A stretch of 64,000 nucleotides of DNA, from contig JANQQK010000002.1 of assembly GCA_028289375.1 (NCBI GenBank), positions 1 to 64,000 of the forward strand, written 5' to 3'. The stretch is from Phycisphaerae bacterium (GTDB lineage: Bacteria; Planctomycetota; Phycisphaerae; UBA1845). Of the stretch, positions 41,599 to 54,913 are shown piece after piece (positions within the stretch are counted from its first letter, which is position 1; every line of letters begins with the position of its first letter). Both the position numbers and the translations under genes were made by a program. Under the pieces are notes generated by a model, which saw only the letters and a list, made by a program, of their open reading frames with translations, was not told the origin of the DNA and did no database searches.

Positions 41599-43272
41599 CT
41601 ATTTCGCGGCGTTTTTGACGGCGCTGCGGATTTCGCCGATGAGCTGGTCGACTTTGAAGGGTTTGAAGAGGACGGCGGCGAGGCCTTCGCGTCTTGCGCG
41701 GACAATGGCGTGGTTGGGGTCGTAACCGAAGCCAGTCATAAGAATGACGGGGGTGGCGACGTTGGCGTCCTTGGCAGCGGCGAACACTTCGTATCCGTTG
41801 CGGTCGGGCATGCGGATATCGCTGAGCACGAGGTCGAACGGCTTCTCGGCGAGGTGGTCGATGGCTTCCTGGCCACAACACGCCGTGACGACCTTGCAGC
41901 CGACGCCGGTGAGCACATCTTTGACGGTGTCGCGGATCATGGATTCGTCGTCGGCGATGAGGATGTGCTTGCCACCGAGAATGGGGTCGTTGCGTGTGGG
42001 CCCGACACCGCGACCAATGATCGCGCGTTTCGAACTGGTGACGTTCTTGATTGAGTCTCTGATGGTCGTGGCGTACTCGGCGATTTTGTTGAGGCGCAAG
42101 CGGAGGTCGTCGTGGCCTATGTAGTCTTCGATGAGGTTTTCGACGTCGGTGAGGATGTCGTTGAGCGGGGCAGTGATTTCGGCTTTGACGTCGCTGCCGA
42201 GTTGGCCTCGGATGGTGTGCCGTTCTGTCACCATCAGATCGAGCATGTGCAGGGCAGTGGCGATGTCGCGGCCGAACCGTTCGGCGAGTTGCTGATCCTC
42301 TTCGTCGAAGGCGTCCTTGGTCATGCTCTCGACATTCAACACACCGATGAGTTGATCATTCAGACGAAGCGGGACGGTGAGTGAACTGGCGGCTTCGTCG
42401 AGTCCGCGAAGGTAATGCGGGTCGTTGGTGACATCGCGGCAGACGTAACTCTTGCCGGTGGATGCCACGTAGCCGGAGGTGCCATTGCCTTCGGCGGAGG
42501 CGTAGAGATCGAAGTCCTCCACGGTGTCGGGCAGGCCGCTGGTGACAGCGAGGCGAAGCTTGTTGGACTTCTGGTCGAGCACGTGGATGGTGAAATTGTC
42601 GAAATGCATGAGTTCGTGCAGGTAATGCACGATCTTCTGCTCGAGCAACGCGAGTCTCTCTGGCACGTCGAGCTTGGCGATCTGCTCGGTGTCGAGCTTG
42701 ATGAGTTCGCGGCCTGCCGAGTCGATGGCGGCGAGTTGCTGCTGTCGTTGGCGAGCGCGGGTGACATCCCAGATGACGCCGACGACCTGAGTGATCTCGT
42801 GGTCGATGTCGATGATCGGTGTGGTCGTTAATTCGAAAACGCGATCCTCGCTGGACATGAAGCAGACGCGGCGGGATGTCTGATCCGGCTTTAGGCCACC
42901 GTCCACGTTCGTGTCGAAGGCGTTGCCACACTCCCTGCGCAGGAAGCCTTTTACCTCGTCCGAGAAACCGATCAGCCGCGGGTTGGCCCAGACAAGCTCG
43001 CCGCGCTGGTCGACGATGCCGATGCCCTCGGTGACGGCTTCGACCCATTCGGGGTTGGCCTGGACCATTTCGGCGCGTTCGAGCGTGTGGATGGATTCGG
43101 GTTCGGCGAGGATGAAGTCGTAGATGTCGGCGGCGAGCATGTGGTGGGCTTGATCGAAGGTGTCGGCGTAGACGACGTCGACATGGTCTCCAAAGAAGGA
43201 GTCCGTGCCGGCTAGCGGTTGGCCCGCTTGTCGGATGCGCAGAATCTTGACTGTGCGTTGCGCCTGACTCAT
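41599..43272 (-). CDS. PAS-GAF-receiver signalling protein
   Basis: In this 557-residue protein, residues ~10-65 look like a pseudo-receiver and ~75-175 are a PAS domain (AVTEGIGIVDQRGELVWANP). A GAF domain (about 200-350) follows, then a helical DHp-like part (about 360-415) without an ATPase domain. A C-terminal receiver is at about 430-555 (LIADDES, Asp in LVLSDIRMPDRNG, Lys in LFKPFK). The kinase catalytic domain is missing, so it probably receives phosphate from elsewhere and senses a ligand via PAS/GAF. Convergent with the YwgA-like gene. Confidence 0.8.
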   Translation of the reverse strand: MSQAQRTVKILRIRQAGQPLAGTDSFFGDHVDVVYADTFDQAHHMLAADIYDFILAEPESIHTLERAEMVQANPEWVEAVTEGIGIVDQRGELVWANPRLIGFSDEVKGFLRRECGNAFDTNVDGGLKPDQTSRRVCFMSSEDRVFELTTTPIIDIDHEITQVVGVIWDVTRARQRQQQLAAIDSAGRELIKLDTEQIAKLDVPERLALLEQKIVHYLHELMHFDNFTIHVLDQKSNKLRLAVTSGLPDTVEDFDLYASAEGNGTSGYVASTGKSYVCRDVTNDPHYLRGLDEAASSLTVPLRLNDQLIGVLNVESMTKDAFDEEDQQLAERFGRDIATALHMLDLMVTERHTIRGQLGSDVKAEITAPLNDILTDVENLIEDYIGHDDLRLRLNKIAEYATTIRDSIKNVTSSKRAIIGRGVGPTRNDPILGGKHILIADDESMIRDTVKDVLTGVGCKVVTACCGQEAIDHLAEKPFDLVLSDIRMPDRNGYEVFAAAKDANVATPVILMTGFGYDPNHAIVRARREGLAAVLFKPFKVDQLIGEIRSAVKNAAK

Positions 43273-43451
43273 CGCCGTACCTGCACCGTGTCACGACACC
43301 GTTTATGCACGAACCGTATTCTAGCGACGCGATCGCCATATGTCCGTGGATTGCCAGCCCGCTGGCACTGTATCATGATCGCACGTTCACACTCAAGTGC
43401 TTGAATTGTTCCCGGACGAAAAGACGCGAAATCGATTTCGTGTATTGCGCG

Positions 43452-44597
43452 TCAGGCAAGCTCGTCGTAAAGCTCGATCACCTGGTGTACGTGTCGGGCC
43501 ATGGTGACCTCGTCGGCCAACGGGGAGAGGTTGTCGCGCATGGTTTGCCGCGTTTCACAGTCACACATCGCGTCGATGGCGGCGGCGAGACTGTCCCCGG
43601 TGGGTTCATCGAGAATGTACGCATTGGACTGGTGTTGAAGAATGTCGGTGCTGCCGTCGTAGCGGGTGGCGATGGCGGGCAGTTGGCAGGCGACAGCTTC
43701 GAGGAGGACGCGGCTGCATGGGTCATAGAAGGTGGGGTGGATGAGTAGGTCTGCGGCTGCGTAGAGGGCGGTGACGTTGTCGGTCGGACCGATAAAACGG
43801 ATCGTCTGGTCGAGGCCTGCACGTTTCGCGCGCGACGTCCAAAAACGTTGATCGCCATTGCCGGCAACGACGACGTGGAGCGCGTCGTTCGGTCGGCGGG
43901 CGAGGGCGTCGATCAAAACGTGCACGCCTTTGAGTTTGAAATTGTGGCAGACTTGGAGACCAAGCACTGCATCTCGTGGGATGTTGAACTCGTTTCGGAT
44001 TCGGGCGCGGTCGACCGGGTCAATATCAGGCGGGTTGACGCCGTTGAAAATGCGGCGGATGTGGTTGTCGTCGAGATGGTAATGGTTGCGGAGTTGACGG
44101 GTAACGTAGTTTGAGAGGGCGATAACGATTGGGGGATTTGGGCCGGCAAGCCAGTCGCGTTCGCGATTGTGGACGAGGCGCTGGCGGGCGTTGAGGGACA
44201 TCATCCAGCGTTTGAACCGGCGGGCGATGGGATTGGGTCGTGTGGCGGCGGTGCGGATGATCGTTTCGGGAACAGTGCCGCCGCGGGGTTGATAGATGTC
44301 AGCGCCGCGGACCGGGACGAATGTGTGGGTGAGGTCGCACTTGGCGTCGGCCACCCATTTTTCGGCGGCGTCGAGGAATTGCTGAGTCTTGCCGTGGCGC
44401 CCAGTGGCGGGGGTGTCGATGGTGTGTACCGTCACGCCAGGCTGCGGGGGGAGTTGGCTGCGGGTGAGGATATCGAGTTGGATGCCGCCGGGCAGGGATC
44501 GTCCCTGATCGAGGAGGCCGTCGATGAACTGGCGGGTGGAGGTTTCGGCGCCGCCTCGGGCGGTGTCGAGCCATTCGACGATGATGCCGATGTTCAT
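43452..44597 (-). CDS. waaG: Glycosyltransferase family 4, WaaG (LPS glucosyltransferase I) type
   Basis: The 381-residue GT-B protein starts MNIGIIVEWLDTARGGAETSTRQF, has RIFNGVNP and LVCHN-type Rossmann strands, and FYDPCSRVLLEAVACQLPAIAT with the donor-binding Glu region. Similarity is to WaaG/RfaG, which adds glucose to LPS-core heptose. Its start overlaps the stop of the waaP-like gene (ATGA), completing the order waaF-waaP-waaG. Acts at the cytoplasmic face of the membrane. Confidence 0.75.
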   Translation of the reverse strand: MNIGIIVEWLDTARGGAETSTRQFIDGLLDQGRSLPGGIQLDILTRSQLPPQPGVTVHTIDTPATGRHGKTQQFLDAAEKWVADAKCDLTHTFVPVRGADIYQPRGGTVPETIIRTAATRPNPIARRFKRWMMSLNARQRLVHNRERDWLAGPNPPIVIALSNYVTRQLRNHYHLDDNHIRRIFNGVNPPDIDPVDRARIRNEFNIPRDAVLGLQVCHNFKLKGVHVLIDALARRPNDALHVVVAGNGDQRFWTSRAKRAGLDQTIRFIGPTDNVTALYAAADLLIHPTFYDPCSRVLLEAVACQLPAIATRYDGSTDILQHQSNAYILDEPTGDSLAAAIDAMCDCETRQTMRDNLSPLADEVTMARHVHQVIELYDELA

Positions 44598-45454
44598 GGT
44601 CGCGACTCCGAAGCGAGTCGGGCGTTGCGGCGTTGATCGTGGCGGGCGATGCGGGCGGTTTTGGCGGCGATCTTGCGAATGAGCGACTTGGCTGGGCGAT
44701 TGAGTCTGGGAATTCGAAGGTGTCGGCGGACGAAGCGGACGCGGGCGACGCGGGTGGCGGTGTGGGACGGTGTTGAGTAGTTGAGGGCGGCGAGGTCCTT
44801 GACGAGCCAGCGGGTCTTGAAGAATCGCGGTTCGATCATGCGTTGCAGGTCGATCAGGTGGAAGCGGTCGGTCGGGGCGGCGGATTCATCCACGAAGATA
44901 TGGCAGATGTACAGGTCGCGGTGGTAGAAGCCGTGCGCGTGGAGGTCGGCGACGAGGTCGGCCACCTGATCAATCCACTCGCGCGGGGCGGGGCTGGTGT
45001 GGGTGGCGGCCCACGTTTCGAGCGAGATGCCGGGGACGGCGGCGGTGAGGATGGCGCTGGCGGTTTCGCGACGACTTTCGACCTGTTGGCCGTAGGCGAT
45101 GGGTTTGACGGCGGGGATCTTCTTGTCGGCCAGCCGCGACATCCACATCCATTCGTGCCATGCGGTGCCGTGATGGGGGTGGCCTTGGGCGATGCGGTTA
45201 CGTTGTTCGCGGGGTGGCGGGTTGCGGTAGCGTTTGAGGAAGAGGGTGTGGGTTTGGCCGTGGGTGTCGATGAGTTCGAGTTTGGATCGGTCCCGCCATT
45301 CGGGGAGGCCTGGTTTGTTCATGGGTTGGGCGAGGTTGGTGGTCATGAGTTGCTCGAGGGTGGTGAGGTTGTGGGCGTGGAGGAGTTCGAGGTGGGCTTT
45401 GGCGACGGTGAGGTCGTTGAGGGTGACGTAGTCGGGATGGTTGACGAGTTGCAT
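44594..45454 (-). CDS. waaP: LPS-core kinase, WaaP/InaA family
   Basis: The 286-residue protein has the kinase-like core LFLKRYRNPP, HEWMWMSRLADKKIPAVKPIAYG and the diagnostic HRDLYICHIFVD with a downstream LIDLQRM. WaaP phosphorylates heptose I of the inner core, with ATP. The very basic C-terminus (about 230-286) is an addition. It stands between the heptosyltransferase (24 bases upstream) and the GT4 gene. Confidence 0.8.
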   Translation of the reverse strand: MQLVNHPDYVTLNDLTVAKAHLELLHAHNLTTLEQLMTTNLAQPMNKPGLPEWRDRSKLELIDTHGQTHTLFLKRYRNPPPREQRNRIAQGHPHHGTAWHEWMWMSRLADKKIPAVKPIAYGQQVESRRETASAILTAAVPGISLETWAATHTSPAPREWIDQVADLVADLHAHGFYHRDLYICHIFVDESAAPTDRFHLIDLQRMIEPRFFKTRWLVKDLAALNYSTPSHTATRVARVRFVRRHLRIPRLNRPAKSLIRKIAAKTARIARHDQRRNARLASESRP

Positions 45455-45478
45455 GGCGGCAATTGTTGCCTTTGACGT

Positions 45479-46636
45479 TCAAGACTGTGAACGGAGGTCC
45501 TGCTTTGTGGAGCCCTTGGCGCTCCCGCCACCCACAAGGGGTGGCGCTACAGAATGTGTCGTGTCCAAGTCCGGGTTTATGCCTGCTTTGCTGAGCAAGT
45601 CTTCGCATTGGAGGTGGACCATGTCAACGGTGAGGCCGGTCATGCACTTGTGGTGGCCTTGGGGGCAGACCTTCTGTTGGCAGGGGCCGCAGTCGACGGG
45701 GATGCTGACCTTGCGTTCGCGGGGATAGTTGGTGTCGGTCCATTCCTGGTGGGTGGGGCCGAAGATGGTGACGACGGGGAGGTTGAAGGCTTTGCCGATG
45801 TGGCGGGTGCCGGAGTCGGTGCAGAGGAGGAGCTGGGATTGGCTGATGAGGGATTTGAGTTCGGCCAATGTGATGTGCGGGTTGTTGACGACGTGGGCGG
45901 TGGTGGTCATGCGGGTGGCGATTTCGGCGGCGATGGCGTCCTCGGATGGGGCGCAGGTGATGAGGGTGACGGCGTTGTGTTGGGTGGCGAGACGGTCGGC
46001 GAGTTCGGCGAAGCGTTCGGGCAGCCAGAGTTTGCTGGCACCGAAGCTGGCACCGGGGCTGATGATGATTTTGGGCTGGTCTTTCGGGATGTTGAAGTCG
46101 GCGAGTCGCTGTGTGATGGTGGCGTCGTCGCGGGGGTTGGTGGTGAGGGTGAGTTGGTCGCCGGGGTGGTCGCAGCCGAGGGTGGTGGCGAGTCTTGCGT
46201 AGTAGTCGCAGATGGGGTGGATGGAGGGTCGGCCATCGGTTCTGGGGACGGTGAGTTTGTGGGTGAGAAGGAATCCTCGGCCGTCGCGGTTGTAGCCTAT
46301 GCGTTGTTTGCAGCCGGCGAGTCTTGCGACGAGGGCGGATCGGAAGCTGTTTTGGAAGAGGATGGCGAGGTCGAAACGTTGTTGGCGGAGCAAGGCGATG
46401 GTGGCGGGCAGTTCGATGGGGCGTTTCTTTGCGGGCCAGGTGATGATGTGGTCCTGCCATGGTTCGTCGCGGATGAGTGATTTGAGGAGTGGCATGGCGA
46501 GGGCGGTGATTTCGGCGTTTGGGAAGCGGTTGCGGATGGCGTTGAGGGTGGGCGTGGCCATGACGCAGTCGCCGACCCATGTTGGTAGGACGAGGAGGAT
46601 GCGATCAGGGTTCGTTGCTTTGAAATGGACCGACAT
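45479..46636 (-). CDS. waaF: Lipopolysaccharide heptosyltransferase II-type GT9
   Basis: The 385-residue protein begins ILLVLPTWVGDCVMATPTL, the GT9 signature. It carries SPGASFGASKLWLPERFAELAD, CTDSGTRHIGKAFNLPVVTIFGPT and the cysteine cluster CGPCQQKVCPQGHHKCM near the end, all as in WaaF. It transfers ADP-heptose to the LPS core. It overlaps the upstream gene by 32 bases. Its presence implies an LPS-bearing outer membrane. Confidence 0.85.
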   Translation of the reverse strand: MSVHFKATNPDRILLVLPTWVGDCVMATPTLNAIRNRFPNAEITALAMPLLKSLIRDEPWQDHIITWPAKKRPIELPATIALLRQQRFDLAILFQNSFRSALVARLAGCKQRIGYNRDGRGFLLTHKLTVPRTDGRPSIHPICDYYARLATTLGCDHPGDQLTLTTNPRDDATITQRLADFNIPKDQPKIIISPGASFGASKLWLPERFAELADRLATQHNAVTLITCAPSEDAIAAEIATRMTTTAHVVNNPHITLAELKSLISQSQLLLCTDSGTRHIGKAFNLPVVTIFGPTHQEWTDTNYPRERKVSIPVDCGPCQQKVCPQGHHKCMTGLTVDMVHLQCEDLLSKAGINPDLDTTHSVAPPLVGGGSAKGSTKQDLRSQS

Positions 46637-48092
46637 AGACGAATTCTAGGCGTCCGTGCCGTGGGCTACAAACATCGCTCATGGAGATTGGTCTCTCATC
46701 GAGACGGCATTCGGAAGGCCGGGGGTCGTTTTCTTCCAGCCACTCTAACCACATCTTGGTGAAGCGGGGGGTCATGATTTCATTCCGTAGCACATGCCGA
46801 TCGATGAAATGGGTGCATGCGAATTTCCGGATGATTGCGACGGCGAACCCGACGACGGTTTGGTCGCGGTAATAGGGCTCGGTATTTTCGAGATAGCGAT
46901 GGAGCGCCGGGATCAGACGACGCAGGTAGTCCCAACGCAGCGGATGGCTGTGACTCGCTTGATTCAGTAGTAGTCGGCGATAGCTCTCTTTGTCGTTGCC
47001 CTGTTTTGCGAAGTACTCCGCGTTTTGCCCGAACATGCTGCACACGATCTTGTCGATCGAGTCTGTCGCGTCGTCGTGAAGAACGTAGTACTTGAGTGCC
47101 GCAGCCTGCCACACACCGTAGGGCGATTCGAACCACTTGTCAGCGACATGCTTATCCGCGGTCGTGGCATTGATCAGAAACGCAGTCACGACATAAGGAT
47201 CATAATTCTGGAGAAAAACGTCGCTGTGAGGATGATCCGGCTGACCGAATCCGAGGAATTCCCGCGCGTACTGATCGGCAACCCGGCTACCTGTTCGAGC
47301 CAAAGCGACAAGAATGGAACCGTGAATGGCCCCTCCGTGAATCTCGCGATACTCGGGCGTGAACAGTGCCTCGAGCGCGTTCTGAAGTCGATGCGCTCCA
47401 ACCCTTGGGGGACTCTCGGTGAAACGCATAAGGATGCACTTGCGATCATCGTCTGACAACTCCGGCCAGCGATCGGTGAGCGGTTCGACGTCGAGGACGA
47501 TTCCCCAGCCAGCCAGGGTGACGAGTGCGTACAATCGTGTCATAGGGTCTGCTTCTCGCAATTGCCTTGCCGCTGCCGAAATCGTCATAAGACCCGTGTT
47601 TGGCGTAGAACAACACTTCGGCGTACACAAGTCGTTTGGACAATACGGATCCGCGTATGGCGTGAATTGGGGCGACGCACACGCTCGCTGACTTAAGGAA
47701 GCCTTGAGGACTTCGATGTCCGGGTAAATGGGTGTCTCACGCCGAAGCGCCAAGCCACCCAAGTCCTTAAGCTGCCACACCTCATCGGGATTCCAGTGTT
47801 CGTAGCGTAGAAGTCCCCACATGGCCTGCAAAGCGATGTGATAGTGATGTGTGTTTTCCAGAATCCTCAGCAAGGACTGTTCAAACTCAGGCTTCGGCCA
47901 AGATGACGCGATCGAAAAGTCCCTGCGTGCCAATTGAAAGTCATCGTCGTCGAACTCCAAGTACTCGATCGGCTGTTTGAGCGTATTTTCGACTTCGCGG
48001 GCGAGGGCGTTGAGTTCGTCGGCGTAGTCGATCATGGGATCGGCTGATTGGGTGGGCATGAGTGTGGCTGCGATGGCGATGCAGGTGAGCAT
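46605..48092 (-). CDS. Secreted HEAT-like helical protein, function unknown
   Basis: I chose ATG 48092 (GAGAGG upstream) because it gives a short signal sequence (LTCIAIAATLMPTQS). The mature ~480 residues are helical with repeated helix pairs (LLRILENTHHYHIALQAMWGLLRYEHW; ALVTLAGWGIVLD; HGSILVALARTG), like HEAT/ARM repeats, and a small Cys patch (CPNDLCTPKCC). The end overlaps the waaF start by 32 bases, so it may be cotranscribed with the LPS-core genes. No family recognised. Confidence 0.55.
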   Translation of the reverse strand: MLTCIAIAATLMPTQSADPMIDYADELNALAREVENTLKQPIEYLEFDDDDFQLARRDFSIASSWPKPEFEQSLLRILENTHHYHIALQAMWGLLRYEHWNPDEVWQLKDLGGLALRRETPIYPDIEVLKASLSQRACASPQFTPYADPYCPNDLCTPKCCSTPNTGLMTISAAARQLREADPMTRLYALVTLAGWGIVLDVEPLTDRWPELSDDDRKCILMRFTESPPRVGAHRLQNALEALFTPEYREIHGGAIHGSILVALARTGSRVADQYAREFLGFGQPDHPHSDVFLQNYDPYVVTAFLINATTADKHVADKWFESPYGVWQAAALKYYVLHDDATDSIDKIVCSMFGQNAEYFAKQGNDKESYRRLLLNQASHSHPLRWDYLRRLIPALHRYLENTEPYYRDQTVVGFAVAIIRKFACTHFIDRHVLRNEIMTPRFTKMWLEWLEENDPRPSECRLDERPISMSDVCSPRHGRLEFVYVGPFQSNEP

Positions 48093-48357
48093 GGTATGGC
48101 CTCTCGCTGTCTTGGGCTGTTTGTTCAGCACCCAATGTACCACATCGCCATCGGTGTCTCACATGGAACATTGTCAGGAGTTTGTAAAACGTCGGTGTCG
48201 CGGGGGTTTCCTTAATGCTTCGGGGGCGGCGTTTGGGTGTCGGCGTGCTCATGGGATGGTCGGTCGGCAAGATTTGCGGGCATGTCGGGGCGGGGGTTGG
48301 TGGTTATCATACCGGCAGGCGAGATGATGTTTGTGGCTGGGCTGGAGGTTGTCGGTG

Positions 48358-48738: not shown

Positions 48739-49782
48739 GTGGGCGCGCATTCGGACATCAGGGTGACATGCAGCAATGTGGAGCCGGCAGGGGTGCCGGT
48801 ATGCGACATTGTCCATCTTCGCAGTTTTCGAATCGGGACGGTCTTGGCATGGGGGTTTGTTGGGGTCATACCAGCGTTCATCGTGATGATGGTTTGCTTC
48901 GCGCTGTATGAAGCCGCGAAGACCATCATTCTGCCGCTTGGGTTGCTGGGGGTCGTGGGCGTGCTTGTCGGCTTGGCTATGCACCGTGCCCGAGTCGAGC
49001 GAAAGGAAGAAATTCGCGGGGCGTTCGTCGATTCGAGCACGCCCAGCGAAGTGATGGCATCGATGATGAGCATGTTGCGAGAGCATGAATGGATGCGATC
49101 ATCAAGTTTCGATGCGACGGTAGCGGAAGCGATTTGGGAGGGCGGTGCTCGTGGGATCATTGTGCGAGCAGTGACAAAGCGTGAACTCTGGAACATCGAT
49201 CCGATTGCGAATTGGTTTGAGGCAGCGGAATTGGACGAGGCGTCACCAGGGTTTGATGTGCTGGCGGGTGTGGAGCGGGAGGCTGACGATGCGGATGAGG
49301 TGAGTGGGGCGATGGGGGATCGGGTTGTTCCGCGGCGCATGATGCGCAACGTACGGATGGCGGGCGGGTGGGTATCGTTTGTCATTCCTGGGTTGTTTTT
49401 TGTTCGTGAGCTTGTCGAGTGCGTGCAGACCAGGCAAGCAACGGTGATGCTTGCGGTCTTTGGCTTGCTTTCGCTATTGACGATTTTTGGTGGACGGTTT
49501 TCGACGCTCTATCCAGAGCAATGGCTGGTCGTGCCGGGTGGAATTTTGTTGCGCAGACCTGCACGTGGTCGCGAAAGCTGGATGATTGCTCGGCTTGTGC
49601 GAGATGAATGTGTGTTGTTCGCGCGCCAAACAGATGGGCAGTCGTGGATCGTTTACGTCAGCGATGGCCAAGAAACACACGAAGAGCACGTGACCGAAGA
49701 GGAAGTGAAAGTGCTGTTGCGGGCGTGGACGAGTCCGCATGAGCCGCCGGCGTTGGAGCGGTTGAGTGATCTGGCGGGGTGA
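48739..49782 (+). CDS. Tandem paralog 1: membrane protein with C-terminal LLRAWTSP motif
   Basis: GTG 48739 with GGAGG 8 bases upstream. The 347-residue protein has an N-terminal transmembrane pair (about 30-85) and a soluble ~120-residue domain containing SPGFDVLAGVEREADD. A second transmembrane pair (about 205-255) and a beta-rich end follow: VVPGGILLRRPA, VKVLLRAWTSPHEPPALERLSDLAG. Genes 2-4 repeat the same layout and the same C-terminal motif. No known family; the beta-rich end loosely recalls bacterial PH-like domains. First of four genes in a row. Confidence 0.7.
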   Translation: MGAHSDIRVTCSNVEPAGVPVCDIVHLRSFRIGTVLAWGFVGVIPAFIVMMVCFALYEAAKTIILPLGLLGVVGVLVGLAMHRARVERKEEIRGAFVDSSTPSEVMASMMSMLREHEWMRSSSFDATVAEAIWEGGARGIIVRAVTKRELWNIDPIANWFEAAELDEASPGFDVLAGVEREADDADEVSGAMGDRVVPRRMMRNVRMAGGWVSFVIPGLFFVRELVECVQTRQATVMLAVFGLLSLLTIFGGRFSTLYPEQWLVVPGGILLRRPARGRESWMIARLVRDECVLFARQTDGQSWIVYVSDGQETHEEHVTEEEVKVLLRAWTSPHEPPALERLSDLAG

Positions 49783-49788
49783 TTGGGT

Positions 49789-50793
49789 ATGGCAAATGGA
49801 ACCGACCACAGGGAAGCGGCGGAGTTGGTCGATGTGCGGATCCCGCTGCCTTCGCACTGGCAGTTGTGGTGCGTCTACGCGCCATTGATTGGCGCTGCCG
49901 GGGCGATCTTCGTGTGGCTCATGAGTTCCATCGCATTAAGCCCGTTGGTGGAAGCAGTGCCGTTTGGAATCGTTCTGCTGGTGTTGGTGGTGATTGCGAT
50001 CTGGCTTGTCTGGGCAATTGGCCGGATCGATGCCTTGGCGGAAGAAGTCGCGACGGCTGGGAATCCTGCGGCGCGTCGGGCCGTTCTCGAACGTGTTGCG
50101 ACCACGGACAAGTATCTGTTCAACTCGTGGGCGGCGAAGCGTTGGGCGAATCGACTATCGGGATACGCGCTTGGAGGATTGTCGGTGCGTGTGTCATGGA
50201 GTCGGCAGCCTGTGAAACCAATCGTGGTACATCCGCACTGGTTTGAGCCGCAGGAGATTGATGATCGATCGGCTGGGTTCGACGCGCTTCGGTCGCTGAA
50301 CGAAGAGGCTGACAGCAGCAGTGGTCAACGCAAGCGGCGGCACATGTCGAGGCGGAGACTTGTGACCTTCGCGGCAGTCGGCATTGCTGCGAACCTCCTG
50401 TTCCTGGCCAGCTTTGTGATGATGGCGATGTTTGGATCGTCCTTCTCGTGGATGGAGATCGCCTTCGTGTTTCCTGCATACTTGGCCGGGCTGTTCGCGA
50501 TGAGTCGGCAGTTCGGCTGGTTGCAAAAGCAGTGGCTGATGGTTCCGGGCGGTGTGGTGGTGCGACGACCTCAATCATTCGGTGAGGGTTGGTCAGGGCA
50601 ATTGTATCGGCGTCCTTCTAGCGTGATGGTATTGATCGGCGTCGGCCGTCAGATGCCGATGGTGGCGATAGCAGACGATGCAGGCAAGGCATCGCGGTCG
50701 TTGACCATTGGTGAGGCGGAGAAGTTTCTGGCGGGGTGGCTGAGTCAGCATGAGCCCCCGGATGCGGAGCGGTTGGGGGAGTTGCTGTCGTAG
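49789..50793 (+). CDS. Tandem paralog 2: membrane protein, most diverged copy
   Basis: I chose ATG 49789 over TTG 49783. The 334-residue protein keeps the layout: transmembrane pair (about 30-85), soluble domain ending SAGFDALRSLNEEAD, second pair (about 190-245), then MVPGGVVVRRPQ and FLAGWLSQHEPPDAERLGELLS. The terminal motif is altered from LLRAWTSP to FLAGWLSQ, and a basic GQRKRRHMSRRR precedes the second pair. It begins 6 bases after the previous stop, so the four genes are likely one transcript. Confidence 0.7.
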   Translation: MANGTDHREAAELVDVRIPLPSHWQLWCVYAPLIGAAGAIFVWLMSSIALSPLVEAVPFGIVLLVLVVIAIWLVWAIGRIDALAEEVATAGNPAARRAVLERVATTDKYLFNSWAAKRWANRLSGYALGGLSVRVSWSRQPVKPIVVHPHWFEPQEIDDRSAGFDALRSLNEEADSSSGQRKRRHMSRRRLVTFAAVGIAANLLFLASFVMMAMFGSSFSWMEIAFVFPAYLAGLFAMSRQFGWLQKQWLMVPGGVVVRRPQSFGEGWSGQLYRRPSSVMVLIGVGRQMPMVAIADDAGKASRSLTIGEAEKFLAGWLSQHEPPDAERLGELLS

Positions 50794-50813
50794 GCAAGAC
50801 AGGCGTTGACGTC

Positions 50814-51851
50814 ATGAAAACGGGACCGGACCAACTTGATGGGCATCGCGAGAAGGCGACTGTCGTGGACGTGTTGCTTTCGGGGGCGCCTTGGCCTCGG
50901 ACGGTGGTGGCGGCGATATTCGCGGTGCCGGTGGTTGTCATCGCGCTGGTTGTCGCGAATCACTTTCTGTTTCAGATTGGTGTCGGTTCGCGTGCGAAGT
51001 GGACGATCGTCGTCATTGGGATTGTCGGGCTTTTTGTCGGAGTCACCCTGATCATGCGTGCGGACAGGCGGCGGACGTTGTCTGTACTGGCGGCGAATTT
51101 CGATCCCGAGACATTTGTGGCTGACGCGCGGCGAGAGTACTACAACGGGACGATCGAGCGATTCGTCATACACGATTTGCATTTCGCAAGGAAACTCGTT
51201 CACCACGGGCATGTGAACACAGTCATTCGATTCTCGGGTGTGGACTTCACTGCGATCCATCCCGTCGAGCACACGTTTGAAGCGTTGTCGCTCGACGAAG
51301 GGAATGATCGGCTGGCGGACTTTGAATGGAACGCTGATGCTCGCGTTGATGGTAAGAAGTCATCCATGAACGAGAATCCGCGCGCGGGCCTGCCGGGCGG
51401 TGTTCGGCGTGTCGGAAAGTTCCTTGGTGGTTGGAGCACGATTTTGGTTGTTGCGATCGTTCCAGCCATGCAGATCGTGCAGAACTGGAGCAGTGGTGGA
51501 ATCCTGCTCGCTCTTCCACTGGTTCTTCTTGGCGGATTTTTCTTGTTGGGGTTGTATCGATTGGCCGGTTCGCTGGTCGCGAAGCAGATGTTCGCGGTTC
51601 CGGGCGGGCTGATCATGCGACGCGCGGGCTGGTGGGATCGTCAGTGGCGTGTGTCGTTGTTTCGCCGGACGGAGAGCGTCTTGCTGGCTGCGCCCACGTC
51701 AACGCCGGAAGTGTGGTGCGTGGCCGTGGCAGACACAACGCGTGCCGACACGTTTTTTGCAACGGATCGGGAGGTGCACGTGCTGCTTCGGGCGTGGACA
51801 AGTCCGCTTGAGCCGCCGAGCGTCGATCGGCTGGGGGACCTTGAGTCGTAA
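50814..51851 (+). CDS. Tandem paralog 3: membrane protein with LLRAWTSPLEPPS motif
   Basis: The 345-residue protein has VVDVLLSGAPWPRTVVAAIF at the first transmembrane pair and a soluble domain (FDPETFVADARREYYNGTIERFV..., FEALSLDEGNDRLADFEWNADA). The second pair (about 205-250) is followed by AVPGGLIMRRAGWWDRQWRVSLFRRTESVLL and VHVLLRAWTSPLEPPSVDRLGDLES. It is closest to paralog 4. Twenty bases separate it from paralog 2. Confidence 0.7.
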   Translation: MKTGPDQLDGHREKATVVDVLLSGAPWPRTVVAAIFAVPVVVIALVVANHFLFQIGVGSRAKWTIVVIGIVGLFVGVTLIMRADRRRTLSVLAANFDPETFVADARREYYNGTIERFVIHDLHFARKLVHHGHVNTVIRFSGVDFTAIHPVEHTFEALSLDEGNDRLADFEWNADARVDGKKSSMNENPRAGLPGGVRRVGKFLGGWSTILVVAIVPAMQIVQNWSSGGILLALPLVLLGGFFLLGLYRLAGSLVAKQMFAVPGGLIMRRAGWWDRQWRVSLFRRTESVLLAAPTSTPEVWCVAVADTTRADTFFATDREVHVLLRAWTSPLEPPSVDRLGDLES

Positions 51852-51853
51852 AT

Positions 51854-52930
51854 ATGGCGGTTAGACCGATGGAACGTGGACACAACAGGAAGCCAGTTTG
51901 GCGATGCGGTCGGGCGTTGATCGTGGATGTTCAGCTGAGCGGTCCGCCTTTCTTTCGGGCGTTTATCTTTGCGCCCGTGATCTTGGCGCTCATCTTGTTG
52001 GTCACGTTCTTCATTCTGACGCTGCAAACAGAACTGATGTTGTCGGGGACGGTAACAGGCGGACTGTGGATCGGAATCACCGGTGTCCTCGGCCTTGTTC
52101 TATTCGTGGCGATTCGAAGTGACTCGAGACGTCAGATTGATCAGTTGGTGCACGGGGCAAAGCCCAGCGAGCTGGTAAATTCGTTCCCGCGGGCCTACTA
52201 CAGATCGTTTCCGGGATCTCCGGACTACGACTTGCGTTCGCTGGCGCGGGGCGTTCTTGAGAGTAGTGGTCCGGGCACGGTCATTCGCGTGACGCAAAGC
52301 GATTGCACTTCGATTGCTCCGTTTCAATGTGCGTTTGAGGCTCAGCCGCTTGACGAGGGTGAGGCGGGGTTTGTGGGGCTGGAACAGAGCGCAGACGCCC
52401 GACCGAAGAGCGACGCTGAGGCAAATGGGGCGAATCGAACGGACAGACTTCCGCCCCATCAAGCCTCGACTTTCAATCGGTTGCTGCGCAATGTGAAGCT
52501 GAACGGCGGATGGGTCATTGTGCTCATCGTTTTCTTGAACCTGGTGGTGCAACTGGTTGCGTCATGGAATCTGGGATACCTGACGACATCGACGAAGGTA
52601 TTGATCGCTCTGGTTGTCGTCGCGTTTATTGGAACTGAGAACAGTATCCGGATTTCACAGCGAGAGTTGTTCATTGTCCCGGGCGGATTGCTGGTACGAC
52701 GGGCGCGGCGTTGGAGTCAACGGTGGGAAGTGACCGTGTTCGCGTGCAGTGCATCGGTCATGGTCTGTCGTGAACCACCGACGCGTGCGGCGTGGCGCGT
52801 GGCCGTGGCGACGCGTGATTGTGCGGAGGTGTTTCCAGCAACAGAGCGTGAGGTCTCGTTGCTGCTTCGGGCGTGGACGAGTCCGCTTGAGCCGCCGAGC
52901 ATCGATCGGCTGGGCGATCTGGTGGGGTGA
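51854..52930 (+). CDS. Tandem paralog 4: membrane protein with LLRAWTSPLEPPS motif
   Basis: The 358-residue protein starts 2 bases after the previous stop. It has VDVQLSGPPFFRAF before the first pair, FPRAYYRSF and QPLDEGEAGFVGLEQSADARP in the soluble part, and a second pair (about 220-270). The end carries IVPGGLLVRRARRWSQRWEVTVF and VSLLLRAWTSPLEPPSIDRLGDLVG, nearly identical in the last 20 residues to paralog 3. This points to duplication with selection on the C-terminus. Function unknown. Confidence 0.7.
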   Translation: MAVRPMERGHNRKPVWRCGRALIVDVQLSGPPFFRAFIFAPVILALILLVTFFILTLQTELMLSGTVTGGLWIGITGVLGLVLFVAIRSDSRRQIDQLVHGAKPSELVNSFPRAYYRSFPGSPDYDLRSLARGVLESSGPGTVIRVTQSDCTSIAPFQCAFEAQPLDEGEAGFVGLEQSADARPKSDAEANGANRTDRLPPHQASTFNRLLRNVKLNGGWVIVLIVFLNLVVQLVASWNLGYLTTSTKVLIALVVVAFIGTENSIRISQRELFIVPGGLLVRRARRWSQRWEVTVFACSASVMVCREPPTRAAWRVAVATRDCAEVFPATEREVSLLLRAWTSPLEPPSIDRLGDLVG

Positions 52931-52963: not shown

Positions 52964-53929
52964 CTACGCGTCTGTCGTCGACGCGGCGAGGCGGTCGGCT
53001 TGCGTGATGGCGATTTTGAGTGCGCTTCGGTATCGCAGGATGAGAATAATCCCGAGCAGGAACGTCACAATTCCGAGGCAATTGGTGAAGTTCGACGCGA
53101 ACGAACGGTTTCCAACTGCAGCGGCAGCACCCGCACCAGGCGGTGTACTGAAGTCGAACATGGCCGCAAGAGACAGCAAAGCACTCAGCCCGAAGATGAT
53201 GACGGTTGCCCATTTGACGATGACGCTGAGCCGAACGAGCTTCGGATTGGGGACGCGTATTGCCAATTGGGTAATGTAGGACAAAACGGAGTAATAAAGT
53301 CCTACGATGACACACCTCCCACAGAACCACAGGATCGCATGCACAAGCCAGTTCTGCTTTGTCGACGGCAGGCAATAAACCGCGGCGACAATGACGATCC
53401 ACATGACCACAAAGACCCGTGTCATGCGACGCCATGATCTACTCGATTCGGTCAGATAGTCGCGTGGTTCAACCGCTGTGATGCTCAGTAATGCCCACAA
53501 CCATGCTCCGTAACCGCCAATTGCAAGTCCCCATCCAAGAATCGAAAGAACGACTGACGGGATCGCGGCAAACAGCGTGACCAATGTCAGCCTGGAGATG
53601 ACGCCAAGCAGCATCAGAATGACCACAAGATCGAATCCGAATTTGACCTTTCTCAGCCACGCGGGATTGGCGAAACGGAGCAAATTGGAATTGTGCGACA
53701 GGGAGATATCGGTCCTGCAATTGGGGCATTGGCCGGCAGGTGACAGTCCGCACAGATCATGGCCACACTTGGTGCAGAGCACATCGGACACCTGCAGGAA
53801 GTCGGCATGGTGCGAGATGGCGATATCGGTGTTGCATTCCGGGCAGCGACCGGACTCGCGGAGGCCGCGCAGGTTGTAGCCGCACTGAATGCAACTGACG
53901 TCTTCGTTGATTGTAAGTGAATCGGTCAT
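52964..53929 (-). CDS. Multi-pass membrane protein with two N-terminal zinc ribbons
   Basis: I chose ATG 53929 (MTDSLTINEDV). The first ~70 residues hold two zinc ribbons in tandem: CIQCGYNLRG...CPEC and CTKCGHDLCG...CPNC. About six transmembrane helices follow (from ~85 on), with a polar YLTESSRSWRRMTR loop and a final YRSALKIAITQ. It is a paralog of the next leftward gene, with the first ribbon duplicated. It converges with the four-paralog block 33 bases away. Function unknown. Confidence 0.65.
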   Translation of the reverse strand: MTDSLTINEDVSCIQCGYNLRGLRESGRCPECNTDIAISHHADFLQVSDVLCTKCGHDLCGLSPAGQCPNCRTDISLSHNSNLLRFANPAWLRKVKFGFDLVVILMLLGVISRLTLVTLFAAIPSVVLSILGWGLAIGGYGAWLWALLSITAVEPRDYLTESSRSWRRMTRVFVVMWIVIVAAVYCLPSTKQNWLVHAILWFCGRCVIVGLYYSVLSYITQLAIRVPNPKLVRLSVIVKWATVIIFGLSALLSLAAMFDFSTPPGAGAAAAVGNRSFASNFTNCLGIVTFLLGIILILRYRSALKIAITQADRLAASTTDA

Positions 53930-54001
53930 GAGCGGCTGTCGGCGACGATGGAAGCAGCCCATTCGCCTCGGCCATTCCGCCTCGCGATTCTCGCGCGGCC
54001 T

Positions 54002-54913
54002 TCAGGTTAGCGGTGCGACGGGCGGATGGCCGGTGTCGTAGCTCTCTGCTTCTTTGAGTGCCCTGCCGATGGCGCTGCGGTACCTGAAGAACAGGACAAT
54101 GCCAAGAATGAAGACGGCGAAGCCCAGGACACCGACGAAGCAACTCACTCCTGCGACGACAGCACCCGCAGCAGGTCCCGGTCCTCCACCGCCAGCCGGA
54201 GGGGCTGCACCAGGCGCTGCACCGAATCCGCCCAATCCAACTCCGGCCATGACAAGAAACACAACTGCGAACACAACCAGGAGCACCATCATGATCATGA
54301 TTGCCCATTTCATGGTCGCGGTGTTCTTCGCCAGCTTCGGATCGGGCACGCGTTCTGCGAGCGTTTGAAGGTAAGATAATCCGCAGAAGATGAGTCCGAG
54401 TTGAATGAGGTTTGCAACAACGCCGATGGCCATGAAGGCGATCATGGAAGCGAATTCTTGTGCCAAAAGCCCCGCGGCGAAACACGCGAACCCTGCCAGA
54501 ATGAACATGCGCGTCAACCGACGCCACGATCGGGGGGACTCGGTGACGGACTGCCGTGGATCCGGCGCGGTGATGAGAAAGATAGCCCAGATGTAAACGA
54601 GTTGACTGATGAGCCCGATCACGTTGCTAGCGGCGAAAAACGATCCGCCCACCACCGGTGCTCCCCCGCCGGCTGAAACGCCAACAGCAACTCCCAGGAG
54701 TAAGTTCATGACGAAAATGAAAATGACCAGATTGAATCCGCGCCTGATATTTCGGAGCCAATCCGGGCTTGCAAATCTCAGAATGGATGTCTGAAGGGAT
54801 CGTTCAATAGGCATCCCACATTCGGGGCAGGCGCCGGACGGATCGAGATTGCGCAGGTTGTAGCCACAGCCAATGCAATAGATGTCTCGCGTGATCACGT
54901 GTTCATCGGACAT
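54002..54913 (-). CDS. Multi-pass membrane protein with one zinc ribbon, paralog of neighbour
   Basis: The 303-residue protein has a single ribbon CIGCGYNLRNLDPSGACPECGMP, then LRFASPDWLRNIRRGFNLV, which aligns with LRFANPAWLRKVKFGFDLV of the neighbour. The matching SVTESPRSWRRLTRMF loop, about six helices and the end LFFRYRSAIGRALKEAES complete the similarity. A Gly/Pro/Ala-rich insert (PGAAPPAGGGGPGP) lies before the last helices. Clearly a duplicated pair; the two genes are 72 bases apart on the same strand. Confidence 0.65.
   Translation of the reverse strand: MSDEHVITRDIYCIGCGYNLRNLDPSGACPECGMPIERSLQTSILRFASPDWLRNIRRGFNLVIFIFVMNLLLGVAVGVSAGGGAPVVGGSFFAASNVIGLISQLVYIWAIFLITAPDPRQSVTESPRSWRRLTRMFILAGFACFAAGLLAQEFASMIAFMAIGVVANLIQLGLIFCGLSYLQTLAERVPDPKLAKNTATMKWAIMIMMVLLVVFAVVFLVMAGVGLGGFGAAPGAAPPAGGGGPGPAAGAVVAGVSCFVGVLGFAVFILGIVLFFRYRSAIGRALKEAESYDTGHPPVAPLT

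Follow-up and report, generated by a model that had tools for sequence, protein, structure and literature searches.

What are the four adjacent genes at positions 48739-52930 of a 64,000-nucleotide stretch from a Phycisphaerae bacterium (contig JANQQK010000002.1; hereafter the window), and what do their products have in common? The first-pass annotation, made from the sequence alone, described four tandem paralogs with a pair of transmembrane (TM) segments on either side of a soluble part. It proposed that a constant C-terminal tail acts as one docking surface for proteins whose variable, sensor-like middle parts receive different inputs. We analyzed the relationships, distribution, topology and predicted fold of these proteins to identify the kind of protein that the array encodes.

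The four open reading frames, denoted g1 to g4, are intact, lie on one strand and are separated by gaps of 6, 20 and 2 bases (Table 1). For the BLASTP E-values, a nominal database of 5e7 residues was assumed. By this measure g3 and g4 matched with E about 1e-46 at 35% identity, g1 matched g4 and g2 with E about 4e-28 and about 1e-12, respectively, and the weakest pair, g2 and g4, had E about 1e-4. The genes are true paralogs, each homologous to the others; the coordinates and the BLASTP homology together bear out the tandem array as it was first described. Their GC content by codon position (about 0.61-0.64, 0.45-0.48 and 0.64-0.70) is similar to that of neighbouring genes. A search for sigma-70 promoters, terminators and Rfam matches found none above chance. 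The four genes are probably co-transcribed.

Table 1 The four paralogs and their predicted parts, in positions of the window.
Feature	Position	Strand	Details
g1, paralog 1	48739..49782	+	347 aa, GTG start; TM pair, cytosolic part (predicted), FEA strand, TM pair, predicted PH-like domain
g1 FEA..LDE motif, candidate beta1 of PH-like barrel, before second TM pair	49207..49233	+	structural alignments start here (half-model residues 26-30); family conservation
g1 TM3-TM4 hairpin, apparently between beta1 and beta2	49369..49494	+	hydropathy; helices 81-99 and 103-123 of half model
g1 predicted PH-like core, beta2-beta7 and C-terminal helix (WLVVPGG..RR to LLRAW)	49519..49728	+	g1 half model, structural alignment
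g1 tail, TSPHEPP and final short helix	49729..49779	+	half model, conservation
g2, most diverged paralog	49789..50793	+	334 aa from ATG; in-frame TTG at 49783 also possible
g2 predicted PH-like core	50527..50742	+	by alignment
g3, paralog 3	50814..51851	+	345 aa; AlphaFold model at full length
g3 candidate beta1 strand (HTFEALSL)	51270..51293	+	g3 model; structural alignment, range 153-333
g3 predicted PH-like core, beta2-beta7 and C-terminal helix	51582..51797	+	g3 model, pLDDT mostly 75-93
g4, paralog 4	51854..52930	+	358 aa; nearest kin are g3 and G001:C113:652-1716
g4 predicted PH-like core	52661..52876	+	by alignment

To place the proteins, we compared g1-g4 and a set of 41 family members with curated libraries. 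No family in Pfam or NCBIfam covered them, in agreement with the first-pass annotation, which had recognised none. Those searches, and PADLOC run on single proteins and on the 41 members, returned only chance-level TM or low-score matches, and the sequence search of the PDB gave nothing beyond TM-driven noise. The family is nevertheless common among relatives. Whole-genome search found it in 29 of 60 related genomes; of 108 genomes searched in the window's order, 49 have it (35 of 65 among the high-quality ones). No convincing member was found beyond the order in samples of 198 genomes from across the class and 199 from across the phylum; matches outside the order covered TM columns only, at E 8e-6 or worse, and were rejected. 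Within the genomes sampled, the family is therefore confined to one order of planctomycetes.

An iterated search of the fetched loci yielded 62 ORFs, and a later search added more. The concern that the array might be absent from close relatives was not realised, as about a dozen genomes (G001, G192, G044, G017, G035, G059, G012, G021, G054, G056 and others) carry tandem arrays of two to four copies, including four in G192 (locus L035) and three in G044. We constructed a maximum-likelihood tree by a quick method, in which many forks stayed open. In this tree, g1 is sister to G001:C113:1713-2771 (99% support), and g4 is sister to the G001 gene listed with it in Table 1 (81%, within a g3/g4 group of 94%). 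Since g1 and g4 each pair with G001 genes, part of the array is probably older than the divergence of the window species from the G001 species. In G044, the three copies cluster in a separate clade (99%), which points to repeated local duplication. A fifth, distant paralog is present elsewhere in the window's genome (G000:C47:19530-20648; L037:7504-8724); most members of its subclade have an RLPHR-like motif, and an ortholog is present in G001. On the G001 contig, a g2-like copy (L038:92-709, G001:C113) ends after the FEP motif near the contig end and is either a broken gene or an assembly edge. In L057, L063 and L066, long extensions at the N-terminal end of the ORF contain no domain and are of low complexity; these were rejected as probably wrong starts.

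We then examined the genes surrounding family members. Among the 82 nearest neighbours there was no conserved operon partner that would point to a process, and all besides UvrC were scattered. A family gene adjoins uvrC in four genomes from two taxonomic families (L035, L043, L050 and L059), an adjacency that looks like an inherited position, not function. In the window, two adjacent paralogs encoding zinc-ribbon membrane proteins (CxxCGYxLR; 52964-53962 and 54002-54913, both on the minus strand) are convergent with the array, and in G017 a family member is adjoined by a protein of 1000 residues that shows repeated similarity to this pair (L076:1076-4078). Such zinc-ribbon membrane proteins were rejected as a partner, as the second of the pair has 19 matches in the window's genome. 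On the other side of the array, a minus-strand LPS-core gene cluster (41599-46636) encodes a GAF-response regulator, a glycosyltransferase, a Kdo/WaaP-type kinase and a GT9 heptosyltransferase. Between this cluster and the array lies a gene for a 512-residue protein without a Pfam match (46605-48143, minus strand). The LPS-core cluster also adjoins a family member in G012:C46 (L050), a single case and on the opposite flank.

Conservation in these proteins is highest in the tail. Mean identity over the last 19 aligned columns is 0.68 within the array, where all other segments have 0.12-0.33, and is 0.50 family-wide. The 21-residue tails of g1, g3 and g4 match one another at 14-18 positions, so the motif was rightly called almost invariant in three copies; against g2 they match at only 8-10 positions, and g2 has LAGWLSQHEPP in place of LLRAWTSPLEPP. 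A second conserved block, FEP..LDE, precedes the second membrane pair, with the F present in 95% and the E in 92% of the family. Along with these two residues, the W of the tail (63/63), the P and G of VPGG, and the S and P of the tail are conserved family-wide.

Hydropathy analysis found two plus two TM segments in g1, g3 and g4 and two hairpins in most family members. The layout first described thus stands, with the fourth segment of g2 borderline, falling below the threshold in one setting. The density of Lys and Arg next to the soluble parts, at 0.214 per residue, is double that of the hairpin loops (0.112). By this positive-inside bias, both soluble parts and the two ends of each chain are predicted to lie in the cytoplasm, and the variable part would then not face outwards as a sensor. 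A receptor would be expected to have a sizeable extracytoplasmic soluble domain, whereas here the hairpin loops are short and the soluble parts are on the Lys/Arg-rich side. Most members of a 13-row subclade are missing the first TM pair and keep the remainder, which marks the C-terminal half as the core of the family.

To characterize this core, we predicted structures with AlphaFold from shallow alignments of nine sequences, taken from the window proteins and the fetched related loci. The full-length g3 model had a mean pLDDT of 70, with higher values in most of the C-terminal strands and helix (Table 1). The C-terminal half of g1, predicted in a separate job in which only one of five models reached a mean pLDDT of 70, showed an identical order of elements, beta2-beta7 followed by a C-terminal helix. 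The pLDDT of these elements was mostly 73-93 over both models. When the g1 half was compared with the PDB using VIA-align 2, 50 of 50 rows among the matches listed were chains whose aligned range holds a PH-superfold domain. They included PH, PTB, FERM F3, GRAM, FACT and the bacterial protein 3dcx, entries that we take to be PH-superfold proteins. The best match (Z 7.1; 87 residues aligned at 3.2 A) is below Z 8, and the best Foldseek match was the bacterial PH protein 3dcx at E 0.16, with none below 0.001; a structural match that carries weight by itself would be expected to reach one of these two levels. Most structural-match rows for the full g3 model were likewise of the PH superfold.

The range aligned in the g1 half (27-204) includes the FEP strand. 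In both models, the aligned range begins at this strand, skips the hairpin and finishes with the LLRAW helix. As the aligned ranges start there, the FEP strand appears to be the missing seventh strand of the PH barrel; this pairing is read from the ranges, from which beta1 was assigned, while beta2-beta7 and the helix were assigned by DSSP. With beta1 before it and beta2-beta7 after it, the last TM pair seems to be an insertion that separates strand 1 of the barrel from strand 2. The seven strands in two sheets with a capping C-terminal helix that define the PH superfold are seen in the predicted models only. The PH-like assignment rests on the agreement of the two paralogs and the uniform match list, the scores being modest. 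We consider it quite likely that the proteins have a PH-like barrel on the cytoplasmic face of the membrane and two plus two TM segments. The first-pass annotation had found no known domain in the C-terminal part; at the level of sequence families this was correct, while the predicted fold is a known superfold. In the models, the PGG(L/I)xxRR strand and the tail belong to a single folding unit. As the tail forms the C-terminal helix of the barrel in both, its conservation may be explained at least partly by the packing of this capping helix.

These results could also be explained if the proteins were true members of the bPH_2/bPH_5 type (YdbS/YdbT-like) that have diverged beyond sequence recognition and keep the same role, in envelope stress or peptide export. 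The order of parts in bPH_2 (strand, TM hairpin, six strands, C-terminal helix), taken from 22 bPH_2 proteins of the order, is identical to that in the two models. In hhalign comparisons, the family aligned to bPH_5 in the expected register at E 0.0015, about equal to what bPH_2 and bPH_5 give with each other (E 0.0011); the reversed control had 0.45. This match is weak and below significance (probability 16%), lies mostly in the TM hairpin and beta2-beta3, and gave nothing when the PH region alone was used. However, the comparison with the bPH_2 profile was not significant, as its probability of 1.2% was exceeded by that of the reversed control (10.9%). No bPH family in Pfam matched g1-g4 at E up to 10, and the matches of the 41 members at E up to 1, of which 25 of 44 families were listed, included no bPH HMM among those listed. 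Separate, ordinary bPH_2 genes are present in the same genomes (36 of 40 sampled among relatives), and the additional N-terminal module is not seen in bPH_2. We therefore regard this explanation as unlikely.

The explanation first proposed, in which variable inputs are coupled to a constant LLRAWTSPLEPPS surface that recruits a shared partner, is quite improbable. It fits the tail being the most conserved segment both within the array and family-wide, and in the g1 half model SPxxPP and a final helix extend past the PH helix, so that this extension could be a docking site. But the tail is mostly the barrel-capping helix in both models, the Lys/Arg bias puts the variable part on the cytoplasmic side, no shared partner gene is found nearby, and the conservation of FEP..LDE and PGG is left unexplained. 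It is equally doubtful that the barrel is another small beta fold whose PH-like look comes from AlphaFold and the aligner only: although the scores are under the safe level of the tools and the alignment is shallow, the strand order agrees in two paralogs, the rows listed for the g1 half all belong to the PH superfold, and the FEP strand provides the first strand that would otherwise be missing.

The reading that we consider probable is that the array encodes an order-restricted family of membrane-anchored bacterial PH-like (PHb) proteins that probably oligomerise, perhaps as subunits of hetero-oligomers. Each chain would cross the inner membrane in two hairpins, with both termini and the middle part on the cytoplasmic side. 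Its C-terminal half would form the PH-like barrel, with the FEP..LDE strand before the second hairpin and six strands and the LLRAW helix after it, and this hairpin, placed in the beta1-beta2 loop, would keep the barrel close to the membrane. Closure of the barrel would fall to the conserved tail, which together with the SPxxPP extension may serve as an interface for oligomers or a partner. The diverged copies could then be subunits of mixed membrane complexes, such as YdbS/YdbT-like bPH_2 pairs may form. This proposal draws on an analogy with DdE and DdF, a bPH_2 pair of which both proteins are needed for the export of enterocin DD14 (PMC8657885). We hold a hetero-oligomeric function only tentatively, and a role in the envelope or in transport is conceivable. 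A more specific form, a lineage-specific inner-membrane pore or scaffold that is hetero-oligomeric and made of co-encoded, diverged PH-like subunits whose TM hairpins are each threaded through the PH barrel, seems improbable.

None of the curated libraries searched contains this family; the kind of protein is already known and poorly understood. Our analysis gives a predicted fold to a family that is widespread in one planctomycete order and unannotated, and provides a further PH barrel, unrelated in sequence, that a membrane hairpin seemingly splits after strand 1 and before strand 2. Membrane-hairpin families of bacterial PH proteins, namely DUF304 (bPH_2), DUF1200 and DUF2244, are predicted to be intracellular and have been proposed to oligomerise; the 2010 paper describes the hairpin families as without strand 1 (PMC2817789). 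The conserved strand 1 candidate before the hairpin offers a testable correction to that description, and the co-encoded paralogs offer a convenient handle on what membrane PHb proteins do.

We compared the family with the known PH-like systems. Eukaryotic PH/PTB domains (Exo84, BCR, ASAP1, CERT) share the seven strands and C-terminal helix, but identity is roughly 4-17%, they are without an inserted membrane hairpin, and the family is without a shown lipid-binding motif. bPH_1/DUF1696 (PF08000; 3dcx, 3hsa), whose member 3dcx tops the Foldseek list of the g1 half, has a PH-like fold but is soluble, without a membrane hairpin and without a sequence match to the family. DUF2244 was rejected as a relative, being nearly absent from these genomes. 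In bPH_5 (PF10882) and bPH_4/DUF1200 (PF06713), a TM hairpin is followed by a PH-like domain as in the family, but there is a single hairpin only; neither was detected in the sampled genomes of the order. The closest layout is that of bPH_2/DUF304 (PF03703; YdbS, YdbT). The bPH_2 proteins in the same genomes consist of E..LWxGRTxW, a TM pair, YRLTxQRLFIERG... and a C-terminal helix, and LWxGRTxW is in most order members a conserved strand-like segment right before the hairpin. An ordinary bPH_2 gene of the window's genome is found at L082 (G000:C23:118942-119160). The family differs from bPH_2 in its motifs (VPGG..RR and LLRAWxSPxxPP, against YxLTxxRL), in its additional N-terminal TM pair and helical module, and in the absence of a sequence match, and it occurs side by side with ordinary bPH_2 genes in the same genomes. 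Like bPH_2, it has a strand-like segment before a TM hairpin, then beta strands and a C-terminal helix, is predicted to be cytoplasmic, and is encoded by tandem or paired genes. Membership of a named family is thus unsupported by sequence, while in layout and predicted fold the proteins resemble membrane-anchored bacterial PH proteins.
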